The notes beneath the pieces were generated by a model. That model saw nothing but the letters and a program-made list of their open reading frames with translations. It had not been told where the DNA came from and did no database searches. From assembly GCA_021234155.1 (NCBI GenBank), contig JAJEKV010000110.1, positions 2,138,338 to 2,202,337 on the forward strand: DNA of 64,000 nt, given 5' to 3'. Below, one piece after another: positions 33,740 through 58,085 of this stretch (positions are counted from its first letter, which is position 1; every line of letters begins with the position of its first letter). Source of the stretch: Isoetes taiwanensis. Its lineage: Eukaryota; Streptophyta; Lycopodiopsida; Isoetales; Isoetaceae. Both the position numbers and the translations under genes were made by a program.

Positions 33740-34190
33740 GCCAAACAGCTAAGCATGGGACTTGTTGTTTCGAAGCTTTGATACTCCCACATGGCATTAC
33801 AATCGTTTGAAGCAACTTCTAAATGGAAGGTACGAGAGAAGTGGGATCATTTAAAAAAACATCGTTACTTTTCTCTTTCAAAGTCATTCAAAGGTTTCTA
33901 AGTGTTAATTTTTGGGTTGCCCGAAGGGGCAAACACAGTGCAAGATACTTTTCTGTGCATTAACTTCGCAAAATTCTTGGCCCTTATAGAGAAAATCAGA
34001 GTAAGCTTAGTGTGGAATTTTCTCCCTCAGTTGATCGGAATCAGCTGGCAAGTGAAGCAGCTAGTAATGAAGGAGAAAGTAGGGCGGGCACCACATCGAT
34101 GGGCTCGCTTGCATCTGGCAAAAAAATCAGCCAAAACTGCGCAGTAAGCCATTAACTGTGTAGTTAACTGTGGGATTTCGGACGAGGGGA
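33740..34190. other. Unassigned stretch between LINE and Ty3 fragment
   Basis: About 450 bp lie between the LINE start and the first recognisable Ty3 RT residues. Short open frames occur but none looks like a known protein. It may hold part of the Ty3 element upstream of RT, too decayed to read. Confidence 0.5.
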
Positions 34191-34194
34191 TTTC

Positions 34195-34893
34195 ATGTGG
34201 AGATTCCGGAGGACGGAATTTCTACCTCCGGGATCCTTGAAACCAGGTGTTTTGCCTTTTGGAGCTCCCATCTTATTTGTTGAGAAGAAGGATGGTACTT
34301 TGTACATGTGTATTGGTTACCGCCAGTTAAATAAGCATACTATCAAGAACCAGTATGTATTACCACAGGCCGATGACTTTATGGATCAGCTGCAAGGAGC
34401 TAAGTATTTTTCCAAGATAGATCTTCGATCTGGCTACTATCAGATAAGAATTAAGGAGGAGGATATTCATAAGTTCGCTTTTCGAACTCGCTATGGGCAT
34501 TATAAATTCACAGTTATGCCTTTCGGACTCACAAATGCCCCAACAACTTTCATGCGTCTCATGAATGATGTTTTTCGAGATTATTTGGACGCTTTTGTCA
34601 TTATTTTCTTTGATGACATTCTTATCTATAGTAAAACTCTGGAGGACCATGAATGCCATCTTTGGTTGGCTCTCCAGAAGTTGCGACGCCGCCAACGATT
34701 TGCCATGTTCTCCAAATGCAATTTTGCGACCACCAGAGTCGAGTACTTGGATCATATTGTTTCTGCTGATGGTATTGCTACCGACCCAACAAAAATTGAG
34801 GCAGTCAAAGATTGGCCAGCTCCTACAAATGTTTCCGAAGTTAGGAGTTTTCTGGATTTGGCAGGATATTATCGCAAATTTGTTAATGACTTT
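34195..34893 (+). mobile_element. Ty3/gypsy reverse transcriptase, left part, interrupted by a LINE
   Basis: An open plus-strand frame encodes the standard Ty3 RT order: [67 protein letters not shown], then the catalytic [10 protein letters not shown] box and [20 protein letters not shown], ending [10 protein letters not shown]. It is unbroken for about 230 residues, so this RT is younger or less damaged than its neighbours. Protease and gag are not visible upstream. The sequence resumes at 36,182 after an inserted LINE, at the next expected residues. Confidence 0.92.
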
Positions 34894-36081
34894 GCCAATA
34901 ATATTATCACAAATTTGTTTGATACTAATGGCATTATTCCCTTTGACAGATCGACTTTGGCAGAGGAAGGAATGCAGGCCAGAACCCTTTATGACAACAT
35001 CCTTACTGCCATCATTCATAACCACTGGACTAATGAAGAGAATTCCTGGCTAAATGACAGCAAGAGGGTTATGTAGTCAGGAGAGCCTATAAATATCTCA
35101 TGAAGGGAGAAAAAGTCACTATCCATACAAAATGGGAGGTTCAATCGGATAGATGCATTAAGAATCTGAGATTTATGTGGAAGAGTCCCATTAATCCGAA
35201 GATTAAATCATTTATGTGGCAATTATGGCATAAAGCTTTGGCTACTAACTCGAAAAGATACACGTTATCTATGGCCAATTCAGATATCTGTGAAAGATGC
35301 CTTGGAGCAAAGGAGGATGAAAATCATCTTTTTAGAGGGTGCCTTTGGTCTGAGTGGACTTTAGAGCTTGCCTCAGGAATCCTGGGCTATGATCTAATTC
35401 ATCTCAGTGAGAAGGACTTTTTTATGCCAGAGAACCCCAATGATTGGAGAATCTTTGTCCTCCTCTGGAGGATCTGGAAGGGCAGGAACTCCTTCATTTT
35501 TAATTGTGAAATTATTCCACCAGAAGGAATAATTAAACAGTTTCAATTTGATGTTAAGTGGATTCAAGAGATTAATGGGTGATTCTATGATTGCAGGTAC
35601 TCTATTTCTGCTGGTGCGCAAGCTTAAATGGAGGAAGATGGATCTAAACACGAACAATGAATGGATAAAAATATTCGGGGCAGCTAAAGTGTTGGAGCAC
35701 ATGGAACAGTGCCGATGTGGATGCTGTTGTGACCAGAACTACAACATCAGAAGGGAGTTAATGCCAGGGCAAAAGATTGGCGAGGGGCGGTTCAATATGG
35801 CTAAGGCAAAATCATGCATGTGCATCTATTGCACTTTTCATGAGAAGACAAAGGGAAAGGCGAGGAAAACCAAGAATCTCCATCTGAAATCTTACCACTG
35901 AATGCTCTATCTACTTTGAAGATACACACTTTTTTTAGCAAGTTATTTATAAGTATTTATCAGTATTCTCTATGTATGAACAAGTAAAGGTCGATCCCTG
36001 ATATAAGATCAGGTTTCTTTTTGGATCACCTCTCTATTTTAGGGGTCCTTCTCCCTTGAAAAAGGAGTTTTTGTAAAATCT

Positions 36082-43734: not shown

Positions 43735-44470
43735 TTAATCCTGCAAACGTAAATTAGTATGAATATAAACAAGCTTCTCAACATTGGGAGGTGATAACCG
43801 ATTCCTCCTCTTGGTATGAATTACACCAAAACTGCTCCAATTTCTTTCACATGGGTTGCTACTTGCTCCTTGGCTCAATACTCTCAAAGCGATTTTCTTT
43901 AAATGAGGAAGACTACTACCATAAGCGTCCCACCACGAGACTGCCCTTCGTAATGCACCTGAAGAGCTAGTAGATAAGCTACTTAATTCATGCGAGGGAT
44001 TGCAAAACTTTTGGAGTTGCTGGGTTAGTTTGTCTTCAAGATCTTCATCACCATTACAGTACTTATAAACGTAAGCAAAGTCTGAAATATAAAACAAAGC
44101 TGCAAATATAATAAATAAATCATACATCAACATGAATGTTTTCCATCCTTGCATTATTTCGTCATCATTCAGTACCTCCTCATGCTTTTCATCTCTATAT
44201 AGTGGATGCAACAACAGTCCTACAGCATGCAATGGTGAATGCAACATAGACCACCTACCACTCCAAGCACCCTCATCATCCTCCAGCATAATCAACTTCT
44301 CTATAGCATCAATCTTCCACTCTTGGATATCCTTTTTCATAGACCTTAATGCCTCGTTCATTGCGTCCATCAGCTCATAAAGGAATCCCATTGTAGCACC
44401 TTCTCCATCTACAGCCTTGAGCATTATTAGAATAAGAGCAACGATGTAGTGGATCTTTTTCGCATTCCTG
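43735..44470 (-). pseudogene. hAT-family transposase C-terminus (dimerisation domain), fragment
   Basis: A 229-residue open frame ends at 43,735. Its C-terminal part has the hAT dimerisation pattern: WWDAYGSSLPHLKKIALRVL, SQGASSNPCERNWSSFGVIH, KRRNRLSPPNVEKLVYIHTN. Upstream, AKKIHYIVALILIMLKAVDG and MGFLYELMDAM fit the central hAT transposase. The N-terminal BED finger and the first catalytic residues are absent. It lies outside the terminal repeats of the large transposon that follows, so it is an older resident and forms the flank into which the Ty3 element inserted. hAT termini are not visible. Confidence 0.8.
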
Positions 44471-44570
44471 AAAATGCATCGCTCCTCTTAATGTCATAAA
44501 CTGTGACGTTCCTCGAGCCTATATGATGCTCCCATCGTATACGTACGGGAAATTCACCTCCCATGGCGAC

Positions 44571-44580
44571 TGTCATGAAC
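44571..44580 (-). mobile_element. First 10 bp of the Ty3 3' LTR, separated from the rest by a DNA transposon
   Basis: TGTCATGAAC here is identical to the first ten bases of the intact LTR at 57,118. The LTR resumes at 54,041 after the 9,460-bp insertion, with TCATGAAC duplicated. The bases left of it belong to hAT-derived or unknown flank. Confidence 0.9.
44573..44580. repeat. 8-bp target-site duplication, left copy (TCATGAAC)
   Basis: It is identical to 54,041-54,048. The intact LTR at 57,118-57,130 contains the sequence once, which shows these bases were duplicated by insertion. Confidence 0.95.
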
Positions 44581-44593
44581 CCCGGGGGGTGCA
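44581..44593 (+). repeat. Left terminal inverted repeat of the large DNA transposon
   Basis: CCCGGGGGGTGCA, a perfect inverse of 54,028-54,040. Identity stops at base 14 (G against C). Confidence 0.95.
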
Positions 44594-45218
44594 GCTAATG
44601 TATAGTCTATAGGGCATGTGCGTGCACAGGGTTAAAGAAAAAGGTCCTTATACGGTTAAAATACTAGAAAAAATCCCCTTATACGGAAATTTAAAGAAAC
44701 TCTAGGTACACCCCCTACCATATATGTACGCTGAGTTCTGTAAATTCCTCCAAACCCCCTACCATATTTGTACAATTTATCTAAATTCAAACATACCCCC
44801 TACCATATTTTTATAATCAGTTTCATTTGGACAGAGACATTATTCTATAAGTCGTTACGACGCCGCTACAAGCCCGTCCACAAGTGCTCTCGATAGGGGT
44901 TGTGTATACAGTTGACTACTTGATTGACCGGGTTGAATGTTAAGTAGCCATAATTTAAGGCTTAACCCGGGTTTAACTTGGGGACGAAGGACAATCATAA
45001 CCCTCGAGGTAAATCATATCACGTGAACCATTGGCTTATTTATTGCCATGTAAATTGGTCAGTTCTTGAACCTTAAGGGGAAAGTTAACGCATGGTCTCG
45101 CACATGGTCAAATAACCTATAGACAAAATAGAAAGTATTCATAGAAATCTAGTATTCATATTTGTGACACCCCAACACCAATTGCATCTATACATTTTCC
45201 TAATCCATGCAGTCAATT

Positions 45219-46020
45219 ACAAATTCATGCTCACAATGGCCCCTTGCCACCCACTAAAAGGATTTAGTTAATTATTGGAATGTTATTTCAAGATGGAATT
45301 TTCACATTTGAATAACAATGGTTTAATTGAACTATTAGTATTCATAAGGGATTCAACTCAAAAATCCATGTGAATTGCTTCAGTATATAATGAGCAAGTA
45401 ATTGTGGAAACCTTGCCCATGTAAACCTTACCCATGCAATGGTTGTTAGAAAAATCAAGCTTCAAACCATTCCTAAGCAATAAGTTTATTTTTAATTGGT
45501 ATTTGCAATCAATGAACCACAAGTGCGGGTTTCAAAATAATAGGCTAAGGGCCATTGAAGTTTTAATGCAATACACGGGGCGATAGCATTGAAGCTCAAA
45601 CAAAGCACTATCCACACAGTGCACTATTCACCTACAAATACATGTCTACAACGGCCCTTTGCCACCCACTGGAAAAGGATTTAGTTATTTATTTTCTAGT
45701 TCTTCTAAGGTTTGCACTTAGAATGTTATTTCAAGATGAAATTTTCACATTTGAATAACAATGGCTTCATTGATATATCGGTTACCCATAAAGGGATTCA
45801 ACTCAAAAATACATGTGAATTGCTCTAGTATATAGTGAGCAAGTAATTCCGAAAACCTTACCCATATAATGGTTGCTATAAAAACCGGGATAAAAACCAA
45901 GCTTCATTTCTAAGCAATAAGTCCAATTTTAATTGACCACAAGTGCAATTTTTAGAATAATAGGGTAAGGGCCATTGAAATTTTAACGTGCAATACACTA
46001 TTCACCTAGTGCACTGTAGC
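45219..46020. repeat. Tandem duplication, two units of about 415 bp
   Basis: Unit 1 starts at 45,219 (ACAAATTCATGCTCACAATG) and unit 2 at 45,634 (ACAAATACATGTCTACAACG). They stay similar through the GCCACCCACT, AAGGATTTAGTTA, TTCACATTTGAATAACAATG and GGGATTCAACTCAAAAAT words. It lies in the non-coding left part of the transposon, downstream of its gene. Point differences and small indels show that the duplication is not recent. Confidence 0.88.
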
Positions 46021-46884
46021 ATTCGATTTCAATCTGCTATAGCCTAAGTGGGATGTTCTTCTTCCAATAGCTTCCGTTTTCACCATCCTAGACAAAAACC
46101 AGCTTGTTTCCCAACAAATAACCTGTATCAAATAACCATCCTAGACAACCCGGTAGATAACGTGTATCATCCACAATACAACCTACTTCGACATGCTCTT
46201 TTTTTTTCTCAAACCATGATTTTATTTAACCTCTGCCCGATTACTTCTAGATGCACTAAAGAACTTATACCTTGCATGTCACAAAATTTGGAAAGAACCT
46301 AAGACATGGATTTTGAAAAAAGCGCAAAGGCTGCAAAAAAACACAAAAAAGGCGCAAAAAAGGCGCAAAGGCGTATGGTAGGTATCGGATGATCTATTCA
46401 ACATTTAACATCACAGTTTCATCATAGTATGTCAATCGGCGGACATTTAACATCCGCAGTTTCATCAACCTAGACTAAAAAAACCTTTAAAACCACAAGT
46501 AAAATTCATTGTAGCTCAAAATGTAAATACATCTAAAGTCTCCAAACACCAAATCGTCCACTACACCTAGTACATACCGAATAATGTTTTGAACATTCTT
46601 ACGAATATCTAATGCGATCTTAGAAAACTAACATAACACTACTGGATCAATGAACTTGGTGCTTGTTGCTCGCATGTCACGTGTAACCAATAAAAGGAAC
46701 TATTCGAAACTAAAATCGAAACTACTTATTTGCTTATCATGTTATTCAAATCGAAATTATCCATACAAATTTTATTTAGTTTAATATGACATGTACCTCC
46801 ACAGCCTCGATTTATCTTCGTATTGAACCTATCTTGCCACACGTTTCCCCTTGGCCTCTGCAAAAAGTTTAGGCAGGCAGTTAT

Positions 46885-49800
46885 TTAGTAACCAACAAAA
46901 TAAAATGCCAAGAAATACTTACGAGATTTCAAAAATTCATCAAATTTTGTCTTGTCACCGTCACATAGTTCGTACTTATTGGTAACAGGGCTGAATGTGA
47001 AATTGGCAAGCGAAATGATACTCTCTAACTCTACAATCTGGTTCTCCAACAAATCGTACGTGTACAAATGACGGGAATCGCCTAGCACCTTATCAAATTC
47101 TCTGTACCAGGCCATGTTCACCTCAACAGCATAGGATGGCCTACTGGCTAAGTCAACGGGTTCTCGAGTTTCTCTCCACGACCTTCCAACCTTCTTCCTC
47201 ATGCTAAGCACCCGACCAACATACCAAACAGACTTTGGTGTTTTCAATATTTTCTTCGAACTCCTTGTCCCTCTTCTACTTGTCTCTTCTTCCACTTCAA
47301 GTTCAAAGTAAACAGCTGCATCACTACCTATGCCCAAGCTTGTCCCTGCATCAATATCACTGGAGTCTTCACTGGTCACAAACCTAGATTTGACCTTGGT
47401 TAATCTGTCCTTTGACAGCCAAGGATTACCATTAAGTTGGCTAACTAATGTACTCTTGCAAATAACTTTCCCTTCCACCATCACATGGTGCTGCACCTTA
47501 TGTTGGATTCCTTCTGCGTGATCTACCATCTCATCGAATACATGTTTCAATTGTGACTGATCGGCTGCAACCTCATCATCCTCGGTGCTTGAGGCAGGTG
47601 GCATCCAGGGAATAAATTACTAATCATATATTTCTTATTAGCCAGAATAACTTTAGCTAAACTTGCTCTATATTAATCCCAAAACTTTATGTGGTCTAGC
47701 TAAACTCTACATATTTTTCCTCTCATACTTTCTTGCATTTAGCTAAACTAACCCAAACATCATCCCAAAAATTTCTATGATGTGGCCAATGAAAATTGTT
47801 AAGTCAAATTACTACACTGTTTTTCAATTGTTTCCACTTCTTTTAGTCATTTCTTTGTGAAAACATTCTAAAATAATGCTAACTAGCAAAATCTATGACT
47901 CAAATTAATTTATAATGCTAGAAACTAAACTACTAATCATATATTTCGTATAAACTAGCCCGAAGTTCATTCTAAAAGCTTCTATGGTTTAGCTAAATAA
48001 TACAAAATTTCACTCTCTTACTTTCTAGTGTTTGGCTAAAGAGCTCTAGGGTTGGTGCAGTCCCGAAAAAAGTTAAGCTAAAATTATTATTTTTTCCCCA
48101 ATTTTTTCCATTTACTTTAGCCAAATTTTTTCAAAAATGTGCTAAAAAATCGCCAAATAGCTAAGTTTAGCCCTTAAATTATTCCATGGTGGCATCTCTA
48201 GTTCATCACATTCATCACTGGTCGGGCTTGCATCAGCTACCTCGCGTGCAAGTTGAAAGAATTTCTCGTGTAGCCATGGAAAATCCCACCATTCCGTTCC
48301 TAACTTTGGCTCCATTCCACATTTCTTGCAAAAGGACTGTGCACTTCTAAGTCCTCTTTGTAGCAAACCAATGACTAATTCATCTGTAGCTACAACCCCA
48401 TAATCTCCCAAGTTTCTTTCTTTGCCATACTAACTTGACCAACAAATTGCGTTTCTAACTTGAACCAAATATTCTCCATTTTAGCGTGTGCTTTGGGGAA
48501 AAGCAAATCAGCTTGTGCCTGGTACTCTGCTACTTTATTCAATGCACCTGCACTATGGAGAAGGTCTGCCCCATCATAACTACGCTCGTTCCCAACCATA
48601 CCACCTACTTTAGAGAAAAAGTTCTCACAACAGTCGCTGCCCGTCAAATCAAGTGGAACCATTAGGGTTGGGAAAAAATCTCTAAAATACTTCACCAGCA
48701 AGACTACAAAATGGCAAGAGATCTCTATGTCCACAAATGTCTGTTGACTGATGAAATTCTCCTTCACTGAATAAACATGGTGATTAATCAACCACAATCT
48801 CCACAATCTGGATTATGAAAGCAAGGACAACAGTTATTGATTATCTAAAACACTATATGACGGAAACTAGAAGTACCTAAAGAAGAAGGCAACAGTTGCT
48901 GCAGCCTCAACTCGAGCTGCCAAGTCCTTGTACGGGGATAAGAAAATGTCTATGTACAAAGCTACTACCTTCAGATATATCTCCGTTCCAAGATTATTCT
49001 CTCTTTTTGTGTTGTTCTCTTCTCTCAAATATGTAAAGGCCTTTGTTGAACCACTGCGACTTGCAAGTCGTTGCCGCGACTCTCAATTGACGATCCACCC
49101 GCTTGACATCACCTAGCTCCAGACCATGCTCATCACACTTCTCAAAGACCGCCCAAATGTCATTTAATGTGACCAACCACTTCCCTAAGTATAGTCGTCT
49201 TGCTTCACTATCAAGAGCATTCACTAATTTTTTACCATTGTGAATGTAGTCACGATCATCTCTGGACACGAAACCTTTGCCATCACCTCCACGTTGTCCC
49301 TTTAAAACCCAACCGCCCCATGGAATGTCAAATGAAGAGCCCGATCTACAATAATCCTCAAGCATGCATTTTCTTCTTACGCTATCACCGTCACTAGCAT
49401 GGCCAATTAGAGGGCCAAGAACGCCCTCAAGATGCTTCCGCCATATAGATCTTCTATTCGGCGCCAAAGACACTTGCATCAAACTTGTTGCAAGTTAGTT
49501 GAATTGCCAAGACTAGCCTAGGTAGCTTAGGATGTAGAGGGTTCACTATTATTACCGCGAGCATAGTGCGCCAATGGCACATTCATCATAAGCTCGGCTT
49601 ACATTTCAAAACCCTTCAGCTCCTTCACCAACTTTTACCACAAAAACTCATCACAAATGTGGTTGTGCTTCGACCCCGAAACCACGCAACACATCATCCC
49701 GAGCACACCATCGATTGCCTTTTTAATAATAGTCTGCGTCTTGGCTGACCAAACATGGCACTCATGGTGGATGAAGACCTAATTTGTCCATCTTCTTCTT

Positions 49801-52800
49801 GTATGTTCTAGCCACATCTCAAAATTATCCTCGCGTATACCAACCCTATATTGATCTTTGAGTTCTACATCTCCGTTTAGTAGTGGAGATATGTGGCCCA
49901 CCAAAATTACTTGCTCAAGAAGTCGTGCATTCTAGCACCACCCCATATCTTTACGATTTCAAATAAGCGCTTAGTGGTTTCATGGTATCTCTTACTCACA
50001 CCAGGGCTTGTTTAAATTGGAAGCTAAATCCACTAAAAATTCCAAAGTCCTTGCTTTCCCTCAAACTTACCATTCCTATAAGCTTGTTCTATGTCCCCTG
50101 CAAAATTTTGAGATATCCTTCCTCTTCATAGATTCGGTCCGCGGTCTCCGCATAAAGTCCTGCATACGATTGAGAGGGCAAGACATCTTCTCTTGAGCGA
50201 AAATTCTCCTTCTTTAAGTAACGTAAAGCTCTGGCGTAGGATTGAGCGATGATGAAGGAGCTGGCACTGTTGTTAAATAACCAAGCGATTCTAGACTTGG
50301 TGGACCTACTTCCTCGCCTTACATCTTTTTGTTCTTTGCTGGATACTCTCATCCCAAGTCTCTCTCCTTTGGAATGGTGGAACAAGGCATGCATTGGTGA
50401 TTGTTAGGCGAGATCTGAAGGCAACACTCATGCGAACGTTCCAACTATTAGCTTTTCTTGGCCGGAATGCTAATCCTCACATCGCGGCTCACTATACCAG
50501 TTCACTCCACGCTTAATGTCCCCAAGAAAAGGCTTTAAATCCACTGTTTTATTATTATATCACGTACACCCCTTGCCAATAACCCCAACACAAACTTGAT
50601 AGAAGCATCCTACACGGTTTTACATTGAATACTCAATATCATTAACTAACACCCACCCTAAACTTACTTATTTACCTACAAACAAAAATGACAACCACAT
50701 CTAAGTACTTACTTTCATTTGCGGTTACTTTCGTCCACCTTATTATCCACGCACCACTTGGGCCTGCTCCACTGGTGCCATCACTAGCAGACACTGTAAA
50801 GAGAGAAACAATAAATAAACTATAAAGAGAGATAAATTTAATGGTACTATGATTTAAATGCATAACAACAAAGAAGATTGCCGAGCGGCCAATTCAAATG
50901 CACAATGAATGGTCGTGCGAGAACCATTGCTTTGGAGTGTGGAAACAAGAGCCATAGAAAGCTTCGAAGGGTGCTTTGGCGGGCTTTGGTAATGGCAATA
51001 ATTAGACCCGGACATCCAAAATGTCACAACATAACATGTTTAAACGACTACATTTTAGCCTAGCAGAAAACTCTTTCAATCATGCCTAGCAGAAAACTCT
51101 TTCAATCATGTATAAAAGAAGTCATCTATCAATCTCTACTTTAAGAAACATTGCCAACCAGATCACATCATACCTAAGAAATGAGAGACAATGGTTTCTG
51201 TTGTATCTCATTGTAATGAGATGTCAAGTAGACAGGTTTACTCTCGGCAGTTTAATGCAAAGGGATGGTTCAAGAAGTCGATTCGATGGCAAAAGAATTC
51301 TTATTTTCAAGAGAGTCTAGGCCTTGAGCCGTCTTACGAGGTGATAATATCCTCCTTGCACTACATTATTTTTAACAACGTTTTTGGCCATTTGCTCAAT
51401 CAATTGGCGTCTTCTACTTTTCGGCATAGAAAAGTAACTCTATGGGGTCTGACATGTGAATGAATCGGGAAGCACCCTTTTTGCCATCATTTCTCAAAAT
51501 AATGCATCTCTCAAAATAATGCATCATTTCTCAAATTAAACTGACTGTATCTCCAAAACCTTTCTCAATCATTTGCTGGACCATGCTTGGTGCCCACGAA
51601 GCTTTAAAATCTATCTCCCATGTGGGATTCAAACTTTTACCTCAAGTATTCTTCTGCAAATTCAACTTTATGACGCCAAAGAGAAAGGAAAAGAGGAGTG
51701 ACCTATATTGTATTGGAAAAGAGCAGTGACCTGTGTATCCATAGGCGGAAACATAATGAAGCACCACTACTGCCTTGGCTGACTGTAAGGCCAACCTTGA
51801 AGCTGCCCTAAATCGTTTAAACCTTTCCTTCTCTCACGACTCCCATTTTAGCCTCAAGTCCTTAACTTCAGATATATATGATGATCCCTATTACTGGCTA
51901 TTCTATGGCTATTTGAATGCATTCATATCAGTTGTTCCTCCTGCTATCAGTTCATTCTTTAAATATGCTTGCACACAAACAAAGTAGGAGATTAACAAAC
52001 CTCGTGGTAAGAAGGTAAACAATGACTGCTGTTTCGCTTCCAGTGTGGAGAACTTGGATGGTCGACCAAGTTTTTTGCGATTTTCCTCATACTTTTTAAC
52101 ATGAGCTTGGGAGGTGATATGCTCCGTCGCTGAAACTATAATATCACCTGCCAAAGATACATTTAATCCTGTAAGAAGAAGACGGAGAAGAAGAGCGATT
52201 GAATAGAGACATCAAATTTGGCTTCATCACCATGACCAAGGAGGGAAAAAAGTTTACCGCTTGGTGGAAAAAGTTTCGAGACCCCTTGAACAAATGTCAC
52301 AAGTGATGAGGATCCCGTTAAGTTCTCTTGTAGTCTCCAACGAAGGCGTCACAAAGGTGAGAATGGCGTGCCATTCTCCATTGACCATTTCGCAAGCTCA
52401 CCCTCCAAAGAACCCTTGAACTTGTTTCTTATTTGCTTCCAACACAAGCTTTACACGTTCACACATGTAGCGAATAATTAGGAGATAGTTAGGGAATATA
52501 AAACCTAGAAAACTCTGGAGCAAAAAATCAGAAATCCAAAAGTGCAGACCTGGCCTAAGTTTTTCATCCTCATGGCTCATCTTGACTCTAGCAAAATATT
52601 TATCCAAATGGGCCTTCGTTTTGCAATCTTGAGGCAAAAAAGTTGTACCACATATCTTCACTTTGCCCCCATATTCATCAAGTTACATTCCACGACAATA
52701 GATCTTGAACTTGGCTTTACCATCCTCGTCGCATGAGGTGAGCTCAAATTTGTCATGCCTGTTGATTGCCACAAGCTTTCTCCTCACTTTTTCTATGCGC

Positions 52801-53564
52801 CGTTTATACACTGCTACTTCTCCAGGCCTTGCAAGCTTTGATTGCATCCGGCTGACTTGTCTTGAACCTTCTCCTTCACCTTCACTAAAAGTTCTAATAC
52901 AGCAATATGGAGGATTAATACCACAACTAAAAAATACAAGAAAAAAATTGTAGCGCAAGTGAAGTTATATACCTTTACGTCACGCTTTACGTAGTACTTC
53001 TCGGATGATTCTAGTGATCCCACATCGGTCGAGGGTTCAGATCGAGGTTTCTTAAAAGGCGGCATGGCATATTCATCAACGATATCACACTCTTTATCCG
53101 CTTCAAATCTGAGGTTGCTTGGGTTGCTTCACGACCAACTCATTGGCAAATGCCACATCGGCCAGAGGTTCAGATCGAGGTTTCTTAAAAGCTGGCATGT
53201 CACATTCATGCAAAAGTTCAAGATCAGCAAGGATATCACACTCTTTGTCTGCTTCAAATACAGGTTGCTTGGGTTGCTTCACAACCAACTCATTGGCAAA
53301 TGCAACTTCTACTGTGTTCTCACGACAAAAATGCCTCTCTTCCCTTTTTTGAAGTGAAATAGGAATCCGTCGTAAACCCAGGAAGCAAAACTCTTTGCCC
53401 TTCAGTGCATCTAATTCATCTACTTCTATCTCCCTTCGAACCACACTATAGCTGCAGTTTGGTGGGCAATGCACGTACCCAATCTCATTTTTCTCCAAAA
53501 AAATAAACACTGGCCTGACTGTATCCTCATGTGACATTGGAATGAGTTCAAAAACAAGAAACAA
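46885..53564 (-). CDS. Putative transposase gene of the unclassified DNA transposon, multi-exon, damaged
   Basis: Exon-like blocks, all minus strand, run from right to left. 53,564-52,978 is an N-terminal region with coding tandem repeats; a GTATAT donor follows. 52,900-52,560 has an IYCRGM block and a C..H block. 52,430-52,260 has ITCDIC, and 52,124-52,030 has EHITSQAHVKKYEE; together they could form a CCHH zinc finger split by an intron. 50,394-50,089 is a middle block. 49,482-48,890 has GHASDGDSVRRKCML, DYIHNGKKLVNALDSEARRL and a DVKRVDRQ block. 48,806-48,142 has NFISQQTFVDIEISCH and LTGSDCCENFFSKVGGM. 47,604-46,885 has VICKSTLVSQLNGNPWLSKD and WYVGRVLSMR. Conserved Asp and Glu in the core could be a DDE-type triad, but that is inference. 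TAA at 52,683-52,685 and several shifts break the frame. The blocks give me only an impression of uncharacterised eukaryotic proteins seen before. Confidence 0.65.
47620..48140. other. Intron-like AT-rich stretch with repeated TTTAGCTAAA words
   Basis: It lies between two coding blocks of the transposase gene. TTTAGCTAAA or close variants occur at least five times. It may be an intron enlarged by a small MITE, but I cannot define ends. Confidence 0.35.
50400..52000. other. Transposon interior without readable coding blocks
   Basis: Between the zinc-finger block and the middle block, no minus-strand frame shows conserved features. Plus-strand open frames at 51,108-51,463 exist but look like chance. 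This part may be a large intron, or it may contain a second damaged gene. Confidence 0.4.
53021..53303 (-). repeat. Coding tandem repeat in the transposase N-terminal region
   Basis: Two units (53,021-53,153 and 53,154-53,303) encode repeats of the form AFKKPRSEP..DVAFANELVVKQPKQP, the second with an extra segment of about 17 bases. The repeat is Lys/Pro-rich and probably unstructured. A partial third KKPRSEP copy follows downstream. Such repeats often vary in number between copies of an element. Confidence 0.8.
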
Positions 53565-54027
53565 ATCTTGATGGACTTTATATGAGAATGAATGCAGCCC
53601 CCTTAAACTAGAACGGATTCAGTCCTCTTAGAACAGATTTATAGGGTCTGTAGCAATGCCCTAGCAATGCACAGAACAATGCATTTCCCTGATTCGATTC
53701 TAACTACGATAATCAAACCACGCTACTAAACCTCCAAAAACTACCTTACCTTGCAGTTGTAGCTTCGGCAACACGTCACGGGCTTTTCTCGATGGGCTCG
53801 ACCTCGAGGAACACAAGATCCGGAGAAGACTTCGAGGGAGCTCGTCGATTCCAAAAAAAAATTTGTTTGGGCCCCTTCATTATACGGACCGGGGAAGCAT
53901 TGAAGGTACCCCCTCAATGTATGCATAAAAACCAACCCTTAGAACCGTCGAATGCGATATCGTACGGATTGCCCTAAAAAGGGACCCCCTTCCGTACACG
54001 CACATGTATGGGGGTCCCAAGAAGATG

Positions 54028-54040
54028 TGCACCCCCCGGG
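54028..54040 (-). repeat. Right terminal inverted repeat of the large DNA transposon
   Basis: TGCACCCCCCGGG, the perfect inverse of the left end at 44,581-44,593. It is followed at once by the second TSD copy. Confidence 0.95.
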
Positions 54041-54048
54041 TCATGAAC
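54041..54048. repeat. 8-bp target-site duplication, right copy (TCATGAAC)
   Basis: Second copy of the target site; from here the LTR continues normally with CTACTCGAAAAC. Confidence 0.95.
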
Positions 54049-54404
54049 CTACTCGAAAACAAGGAAAAATACGTAGAAAATATGCAAGAAATACGGAAGA
54101 AATACGCCAAGATCGGCAAAGAATCTGATATATGAACAAGAATCAAGAATACAATGGCCTGAAGGCAAGCAGGAACAGGAGACAGATGCCTAGAAGGCTC
54201 AAGACTGGCGTTGAACCAGGAATGGTTCGACAAGAAGGAGGTGCCTCCTTATATATCTAGATCAACGGTCAGGACCGCGCCACTCCAATGGATGAGATCG
54301 CGCCAAGTGTCGTGCATGCATTTAGGTTCTAGAATATTCTAGAACCTCCTGGAGATAGTCCCACATATGAGGAAGACGTGATGGAATGTCTTCAACAAAT
54401 ATTG

Positions 54405-54478
54405 GTAGTGCACTTGGCAAGGGTGTATGACTCGCAACTAGAAGATTGCGAGTTCAAACCCTATCTTGTGCAACTACT
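54405..54478 (+). repeat. tRNA-like segment within the 3' LTR
   Basis: GTAGTGCAC at the start can pair with GTGCAACTAC at the end. CTCGCAA and TTGCGAG form a central 7-bp stem around an 8-nt loop, followed by GAGTTCAAACCC, a B-box-like word. The layout resembles a decayed tRNA. The other LTR keeps most of it at 57,500-57,575. It is probably a tRNA-derived or SINE-like insert, not a functional tRNA gene. Confidence 0.4.
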
Positions 54479-54559
54479 CTTTTGCATCCGTGTGACGACC
54501 ATCTCTTGTACATACGAGTATAATGTTCGTATGATACGAATATCTGTATGGTCGTCACA

Positions 54560-57117: not shown

Positions 57118-57676
57118 TGTCATGAACCTACTCGAAAACAAGGAAAAATACGTGAAAAATACGCAAGAAATACGGAAGAAATATGCCAAGATCGGCAAAG
57201 AATCTGATATATGAACAAGAATCAAGAATACAATGGCCCGAAGGCAAGCAGGAACACGAGACAGATGCCTAGAAGGCTCAAGACTGGCGTTGAACCGGAA
57301 TGGTTCGACAAGAAGGAGGTGCCTCCTTATATATTTAGGTCAACGGTATCGCACCACTCCAATGGATGAGATCGCACCAGGTGTCGCGCATGCATTTAGG
57401 TTCTAGAATCATGCATTTAGGTTCTAGAATATTCTAGAACCTCCTGGAGATAGTCCCACATATGAGGAAGACGTGATGTAATGTCTTCAACAAATATTGG
57501 TAGTGCACTTGGCAAGGGTGTATGACTTGCAACTGGAAGGTTGCGAGTTCAAACTCTGTCTTGTGCAACTACCCTTTCGCATCTGTGGGATGACCATCTC
57601 TTGTACGTATGAGTATAATGTTACAGATGACCATCTCTTGTACGTATGAGTATAATGTTTGTACGATACGAATATC
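57118..57676 (-). mobile_element. Ty3 element 5' LTR
   Basis: It starts TGTCATGAACCTACTCG and matches the 3' LTR. It carries two short tandem duplications absent from the other LTR: CATGCATTTAGGTTCTAGAAT near 57,390-57,430, and a CATCTCTTGTACGTATGAGT block near 57,590-57,655. The last 12-14 bases expected from the other LTR are missing at the outer end, where the next element's LTR begins directly. No clear primer-binding site starting TGG follows the LTR on the minus strand. Confidence 0.92.
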
Positions 57677-58085
57677 TGGCGTGGAAAATACAAAGATACG
57701 TACTTTATTATAAAACAGAGGAGATTACAATCAGATCATCAGATCAAAAGTTTTGGACCTGAGTCCTTTCACACAATAATATAGAAGACACATAACAAGG
57801 TCCGCAGTGGACCATAAGGAACACACATAAGAAAACACAACATGGCCCCTAAAGTGAGCCGTCAAAGAACTGCAGATGCCGCCGTATGCACTACTCACCT
57901 GCAGGATTACAGTACATCAGTACTCAATATAATTATACAAAGTTGTGGTTGAAGAGATCACCCACTTGAGAATGAAAATGAGAAATGAAAATGAGGGAAT
58001 CCTATGATGCCTAAGGCTTAGCATTATAGCAGTAGACGGTTCCATCCTAATATGCTTATATGCAAATCCCCAATCCTAGGATGCA
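57677..58085 (-). mobile_element. 3' LTR of a second Ty3 chromovirus
   Basis: A 409-bp segment begins TGGCGTGG and ends at TGCA. It is bordered on the element side by a purine tract on the minus strand (AAAGGGGTTGGGGTAGA, polypurine tract). An AATAAA signal on the minus strand lies near 57,704-57,709. The 5' LTR is not in the window, so the assignment rests on position, TG..CA ends and the PPT. Confidence 0.7.

Follow-up and report, generated by a model that had tools for sequence, protein, structure and literature searches.

A 64,000-bp stretch of the Isoetes taiwanensis genome (assembly GCA_021234155.1, contig JAJEKV010000110.1, positions 2,138,338 to 2,202,337; hereafter the window) carries a 9,460-bp DNA transposon. 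We find that it belongs to a large family of cut-and-paste transposons with precisely bounded ends. It is highly probable that the window element is a dead copy from this family and that the family's transposase is a distant relative of the P-element transposase. The superfamily question is thereby settled to the level of "P-like."

The transposon is precisely bounded within a long terminal repeat

The element occupies positions 44581-54040, measured between the two copies of its target-site duplication (TSD). CCCGGGGGGTGCA occurs once in the window (44581-44593) and its reverse complement once (54028-54040), giving perfect 13-bp terminal inverted repeats (TIRs). TCATGAAC is present in the window only at 44573, 54041, and 57120. 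The first two sites directly flank the element as a perfect 8-bp duplication, while the third is the single copy in the sister long terminal repeat (LTR). With the element and one duplication removed, the joined flanks align across the junction to this sister LTR at 57,118. An initial annotation of this DNA, which described a precisely bounded DNA transposon and a sister LTR showing the pre-insertion sequence, is confirmed on both points.

44571..44580, no strand: left-hand LTR remnant (TG + TCATGAAC)
44573..44580, no strand: 8-bp target duplication, left copy (TCATGAAC)
44581..44593, plus: 13-bp terminal inverted repeat, left
44615..44626, plus: left 12-bp subterminal repeat, CATGTGCGTGCA, at 34 bp from the tip
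53995..54006, minus: right 12-bp subterminal repeat, CATGTGCGTGTA, at 34 bp from the tip
54028..54040, minus: 13-bp terminal inverted repeat, right
54041..54048, no strand: 8-bp target duplication, right copy
54049..54546, no strand: remainder of the interrupted LTR (far end approximate)
57118..57678, no strand: sister LTR, single uninterrupted site (far end approximate)

A caveat applies to the left side, where the insertion point lies 2 bp inside the LTR start and the LTR remnant consists only of the 10 bp TGTCATGAAC, with 12 bases matching the sister LTR; right of the insertion, the LTR match spans ~500 bp. The sister LTR opens with the same ten bases as the left remnant, and the bases upstream differ, as expected. 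The two LTRs mismatch at 26/474 ungapped positions, a divergence that sets the maximum age of the insertion. Ty3-type matches in the retroelement that holds the insertion comprise integrase zinc-binding, RNase H, and Tf2-type SH3 domains, and a chromodomain scores just under the Pfam cut-off. The transposon sits inside an LTR of this element, which bears out the earlier claim that it is the younger of the two.

The family is abundant and includes many short copies

The 13-bp TIR has 563 exact matches (279 + 284) in the 1.66-Gb genome, compared with 1 + 1 for a reversed-pattern control. Both exact ends are present at 35 places (control, 0), which represent miniature inverted-repeat transposable elements (MITEs) of 250-272 bp with a median nearest-neighbour identity of 97.8%. 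The genome-wide TIR search proposed in the initial annotation thus recovered short copies with both ends, and the ends of other copies coincide with the TIRs of the window element. We examined 40 end pairs, namely those of the 35 MITEs, three elements of 3.6-4.4 kb, the coding copy L039, and the window element. An exact 8-bp duplication, as anticipated for other copies, flanks 38 of these, the exceptions being L056 and L073. L044 and L060, on contigs C107 and C974, are the same MITE with shared flanks and probably represent a single insertion counted twice; both haplotypes could be present in the assembly, or the region may be duplicated.

Of 82 ends scored (70 from MITEs and 12 from larger elements), 75 have a subterminal repeat, CATGTGCGTG(C/T)A, at a distance of 34 bp from the tip; the best match in the other seven is elsewhere. 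Target sites carry 0.49 bits over 8 positions (p 0.016 vs random 8-mers of the window) and show no strong motif. The 3.6- and 3.9-kb elements were also considered as simple internal deletions of the window element. This was rejected; what they have in common with it is ~360-420 bp at the left end and some short segments.

Other copies encode a transposase under constraint

Transposase matches in the genome number 150 scored among 500 candidates, and 23 of the listed matches lie in an uninterrupted frame of at least 500 amino acids. The closest copy, C1053, is 92-98% identical to the window element in the five largest aligned blocks. Its homology ends exactly at the right TIR; its left end was looked for and not found, the left part being rearranged. 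L039 (7,855 bp) has the ends CCCGGGGGGTGCA and CAAGGGGGGTTCA and the duplication TATTGATT, and the C1042 element (6,213 bp) has the ends CAAGGGGGGTTCA and CCCAGGGGATTCA and the duplication AGTGAACC. The far end of each was located by joint scoring of end and duplication, and the L039 duplication is therefore not independent evidence, since its right end was found in this way. No right end of L040 was found within the stretch examined. Some members of the family begin with CA (CAAGGGGGGTTCA), so the GC-rich ends lacking an initial CA, previously taken as a family indicator, do not serve as one.

The ratio of nonsynonymous to synonymous substitution rates (dN/dS) is 0.10 for L010 vs L014 (555 codons), 0.30 for L026/L033, and 0.53 for L019/L026; five other pairs were saturated. 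These values indicate that the transposase evolved under constraint.

The transposase is probably related to that of P elements

Comparisons were based on 43 relatives (39 of 42 proteins from one search and 4 of 12 from another) and on 28 of 156 P-type proteins (120 listed). In a structural alignment to P transposase, P residues 132-567 were aligned over 407 residues at ~13% identity. The RNase H-fold catalytic domain has equivalents of D230, D303, and E531, the catalytic triad of P according to the available excerpt of PMC7776569. P D230 corresponds to D269 (37/37 relatives with a letter there), D303 to D388 (42/43), and E531 to E621 (24/24). P residues D339, H342, K345, and N349 are also largely kept. 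From this residue alignment, the active site is predicted to work like that of P transposase. The ends are likewise of the P-superfamily type, with an 8-bp duplication (38/40 end pairs) and a 13-bp TIR accompanied by a 12-bp subterminal inverted repeat at +34 (75/82 ends).

Eight GTP-contact residues of P are named in the same excerpt (PMC7776569). D528 is kept in 23/24 relatives, D444 is D or E in 27/32, and S409 is S in 13/37, while K385, K400, V401, F443, and N447 are mostly replaced by other residues. In the structural model the GTP-binding insertion region forms helices, within the range aligned to P. A THAP domain, the N-terminal domain of animal P members, was detected neither in the 43 relatives at E 0.1, several of which lack the N-terminus, nor, at E 1, in the N-terminal frames of the window element, L039, and L041. 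The P-type Pfam model PF21787 is touched by only 6/43 relatives (best E 0.0022) and so does not mark the family as P-type. A genome scan with PF21787 gave 0 matches and is uninformative, since each of the 14 controls also scored 0. Among 42 relatives looked up in precomputed Pfam assignments, one carries PF13359 and the other 41 have none. Because neither the THAP domain nor the Pfam models place it there, and because the cofactor site differs, we do not file the family as a canonical P element.

The element had been suspected to lie outside the commonly annotated plant superfamilies. This holds insofar as it falls outside the seven TIR superfamilies in the available part of PMC10741241, but the label of unknown superfamily no longer applies, as both the fold and the profile put the transposase beside P. 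The novelty that a profile match to a known superfamily was expected to cancel is accordingly reduced in part, and an unusual lineage remains.

Two side observations concern the proteins. In P0051, a transposase relative, a PF13359 (DDE_Tnp_4) stretch lies within the same predicted protein. The N-terminus (L041:770-1522 and relatives) may be beta-grasp/DIX-like: two of the 43 relatives reach the SOSEKI DIX-like family (E 0.019 at best), while the L041 N-terminal frame itself has no match to that family.

The window copy is dead

The transposase gene of the window element lies on the minus strand, as previously proposed, from ~53.5 to 46.9 kb. Stops and frameshifts disrupt it (one 1.5-kb tblastn alignment contains 21 stops), and it is divided by a nested insertion of 582 bp, which is flanked by the 9-bp duplication GGTGGCATC and absent from L010 and L011. 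Its first catalytic motif reads SQDAD, compared with AEDET in relatives. The window copy is dead, and with these lesions the earlier description of a complete element does not hold. Pfam searches of nine frames of the element returned nothing useful, PDB sequence searches with one open reading frame (ORF) and two profiles returned no transposase, and a distant DNA search of plasmids returned no match.

46918..47592, minus: transposase 3' part (linker and C-terminal domain), open here
46951..47355, minus: BAH-like domain, residues 88-222 of ORF 46885-47616
47606..48187, no strand: 582-bp nested insertion, with the 9-bp duplication GGTGGCATC at 47597-47605 and 48188-48196
48193..48414, minus: transposase piece between the E-motif exon and the nested insertion
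48447..48809, minus: exon of the transposase; carries the third motif, GSDCCENFFS
48870..50602, minus: broken RNase H core; second motif GHASDGDS kept, first motif SQDAD
52596..52874, minus: N-terminal transposase piece (zinc-finger-like region of relatives)
53259..53516, minus: first N-terminal transposase piece

The element also contains a tandem duplication at 45275-45986 with ~440 bp spacing (repeat families D5, D8, and D10), and a repeated stretch at 53017-53309, in the N-terminal part of the gene, with 133-150 bp spacing (repeat families D9 and D12). Elsewhere in the window, a reverse transcriptase frame lies at 34168-35073 on the plus strand (PF00078, E 8e-30). An Rfam scan of the window gave no match.

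A candidate chromatin domain and a proposed mechanism

The C-terminal domain of the transposase has a BAH-like fold and looks like an unexpected chromatin-domain candidate; the P-element domain list in the available excerpt of PMC7776569 does not include BAH. No sequence match was found to BAH profiles or solved BAH chains. A Foldseek search with the domain alone returned mainly ribosomal proteins (E 0.055 and worse), with ZMET2 at rank 42.

We propose that binding of the transposase to the 12-bp subterminal repeats, each lying 34 bp inside a 13-bp end, is followed by pairing of both ends. The RNase H-fold D-D-E active site would cut the ends, which would be joined to target DNA with an 8-bp stagger, leading to the 8-bp duplication. 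Short derivatives (the MITEs and the 3.6-4.4-kb elements) would have moved in trans, and the BAH-like domain at the C-terminus is probably a tether between the complex and chromatin. DNA binding, cleavage, trans-mobilisation, and chromatin tethering are all inferred here. A broader and distinctly more tentative proposal is that the family represents an ancient lineage sister to P, present in land plants, brittle stars, and metagenome organisms, that is without THAP, is GTP-independent, and gained a histone-mark-reading BAH domain for target choice or tolerance.

Alternative classifications

The family could form a distinct superfamily that already has a different name, either Novosib or one entered in Repbase as P or without classification. 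Novosib elements reportedly share 8-bp duplications, and given its age and wide distribution the family may have come to the notice of curators. Against this, we found no report or description of the family in the open-access literature, and a literature search with the end sequences returned nothing on such a transposon. We consider this alternative possible, although rather unlikely.

Much less probable is an aberrant hAT element, for which 8-bp duplications, as seen here, short ends, and abundant MITEs would all be usual; plant hAT elements have TIRs of 5-27 bp and TSDs of 8 bp in the available part of PMC10741241. Furthermore, a minus-strand frame with a hAT C-terminal dimerisation domain (43735-44487; PF05699, E 6.3e-13) ends <100 bp left of the element. 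This frame is the remnant of a different transposon, and the scan that detects it finds a hAT transposase or dimerisation domain in 0/43 relatives. A KDZ/Zisupton-type element, with 8-bp duplications and a large transposase, is improbable to the same degree. The duplication length and the large elements fit, and KDZ elements can be very large according to the accessible text of PMC12477816. However, KDZ is not among the 13 Pfam families touched by the 43 relatives, in a scan without a KDZ positive control, and both fold and profile match P, in a comparison that included no KDZ structure or alignment. Finally, although chance can produce isolated 13-bp ends and a lone 8-bp match, a chance inverted repeat beside unrelated coding remnants is refuted by the genomic 13-mer counts (563 vs 2), the 35 MITEs with both exact ends, the exact duplications (38/40), and the subterminal repeat at a fixed distance, which leave it next to no probability.

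A P-like lineage in a plant, compared with known systems

P elements, a founding model for DNA transposition, are usually discussed as elements of animals. In the excerpts available, P is described as mostly restricted to Drosophila (PMC5791352), THAP domains as not found in plants (PMC7776569), and one plant genome as without the P superfamily (PMC11939994); a 2023 review lists seven TIR superfamilies for plants, P not among them (PMC10741241). With no fewer than 150 transposase matches and 563 exact ends in one plant genome, this P-like lineage indicates that standard annotation misses a group. If the BAH-like domain is truly part of a DNA transposase, chromatin reading by a cut-and-paste transposon becomes directly testable. 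A D-D-E triad that stays intact while most GTP contacts are replaced also offers a natural experiment for asking why P depends on GTP.

The family shares 8-bp duplications, short TIRs, and MITEs with plant hAT elements, but differs from them in transposase fold and profile. Its candidate domain has no sequence match to the BAH domains of Arabidopsis EBS, poplar SHL, ZMET2, and DNMT1. With Drosophila P transposase (PDB 6p5a, 6pe2), it shares the RNase H fold, the D-D-E triad, and the residues D339, H342, K345, N349, and D528. It also resembles the Drosophila P element in its 8-bp duplication and its TIR with a subterminal inverted repeat, as described in the excerpt of PMC7776569. Unlike Drosophila P, it has no detected THAP domain, five of the eight GTP contacts are mostly replaced, the C-terminus carries a BAH-like domain, and the end sequences are different. 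The zebrafish THAP9 transposon, according to the same excerpt (PMC7776569), has spacers of ~400 bp, whereas here the subterminal repeat lies 34 bp from the tip and no THAP domain was found. Nevertheless, that transposon has 13-bp TIRs, 12-bp subterminal inverted repeats, 8-bp duplications, and internally deleted copies, and the Isoetes family is like it in all four respects.
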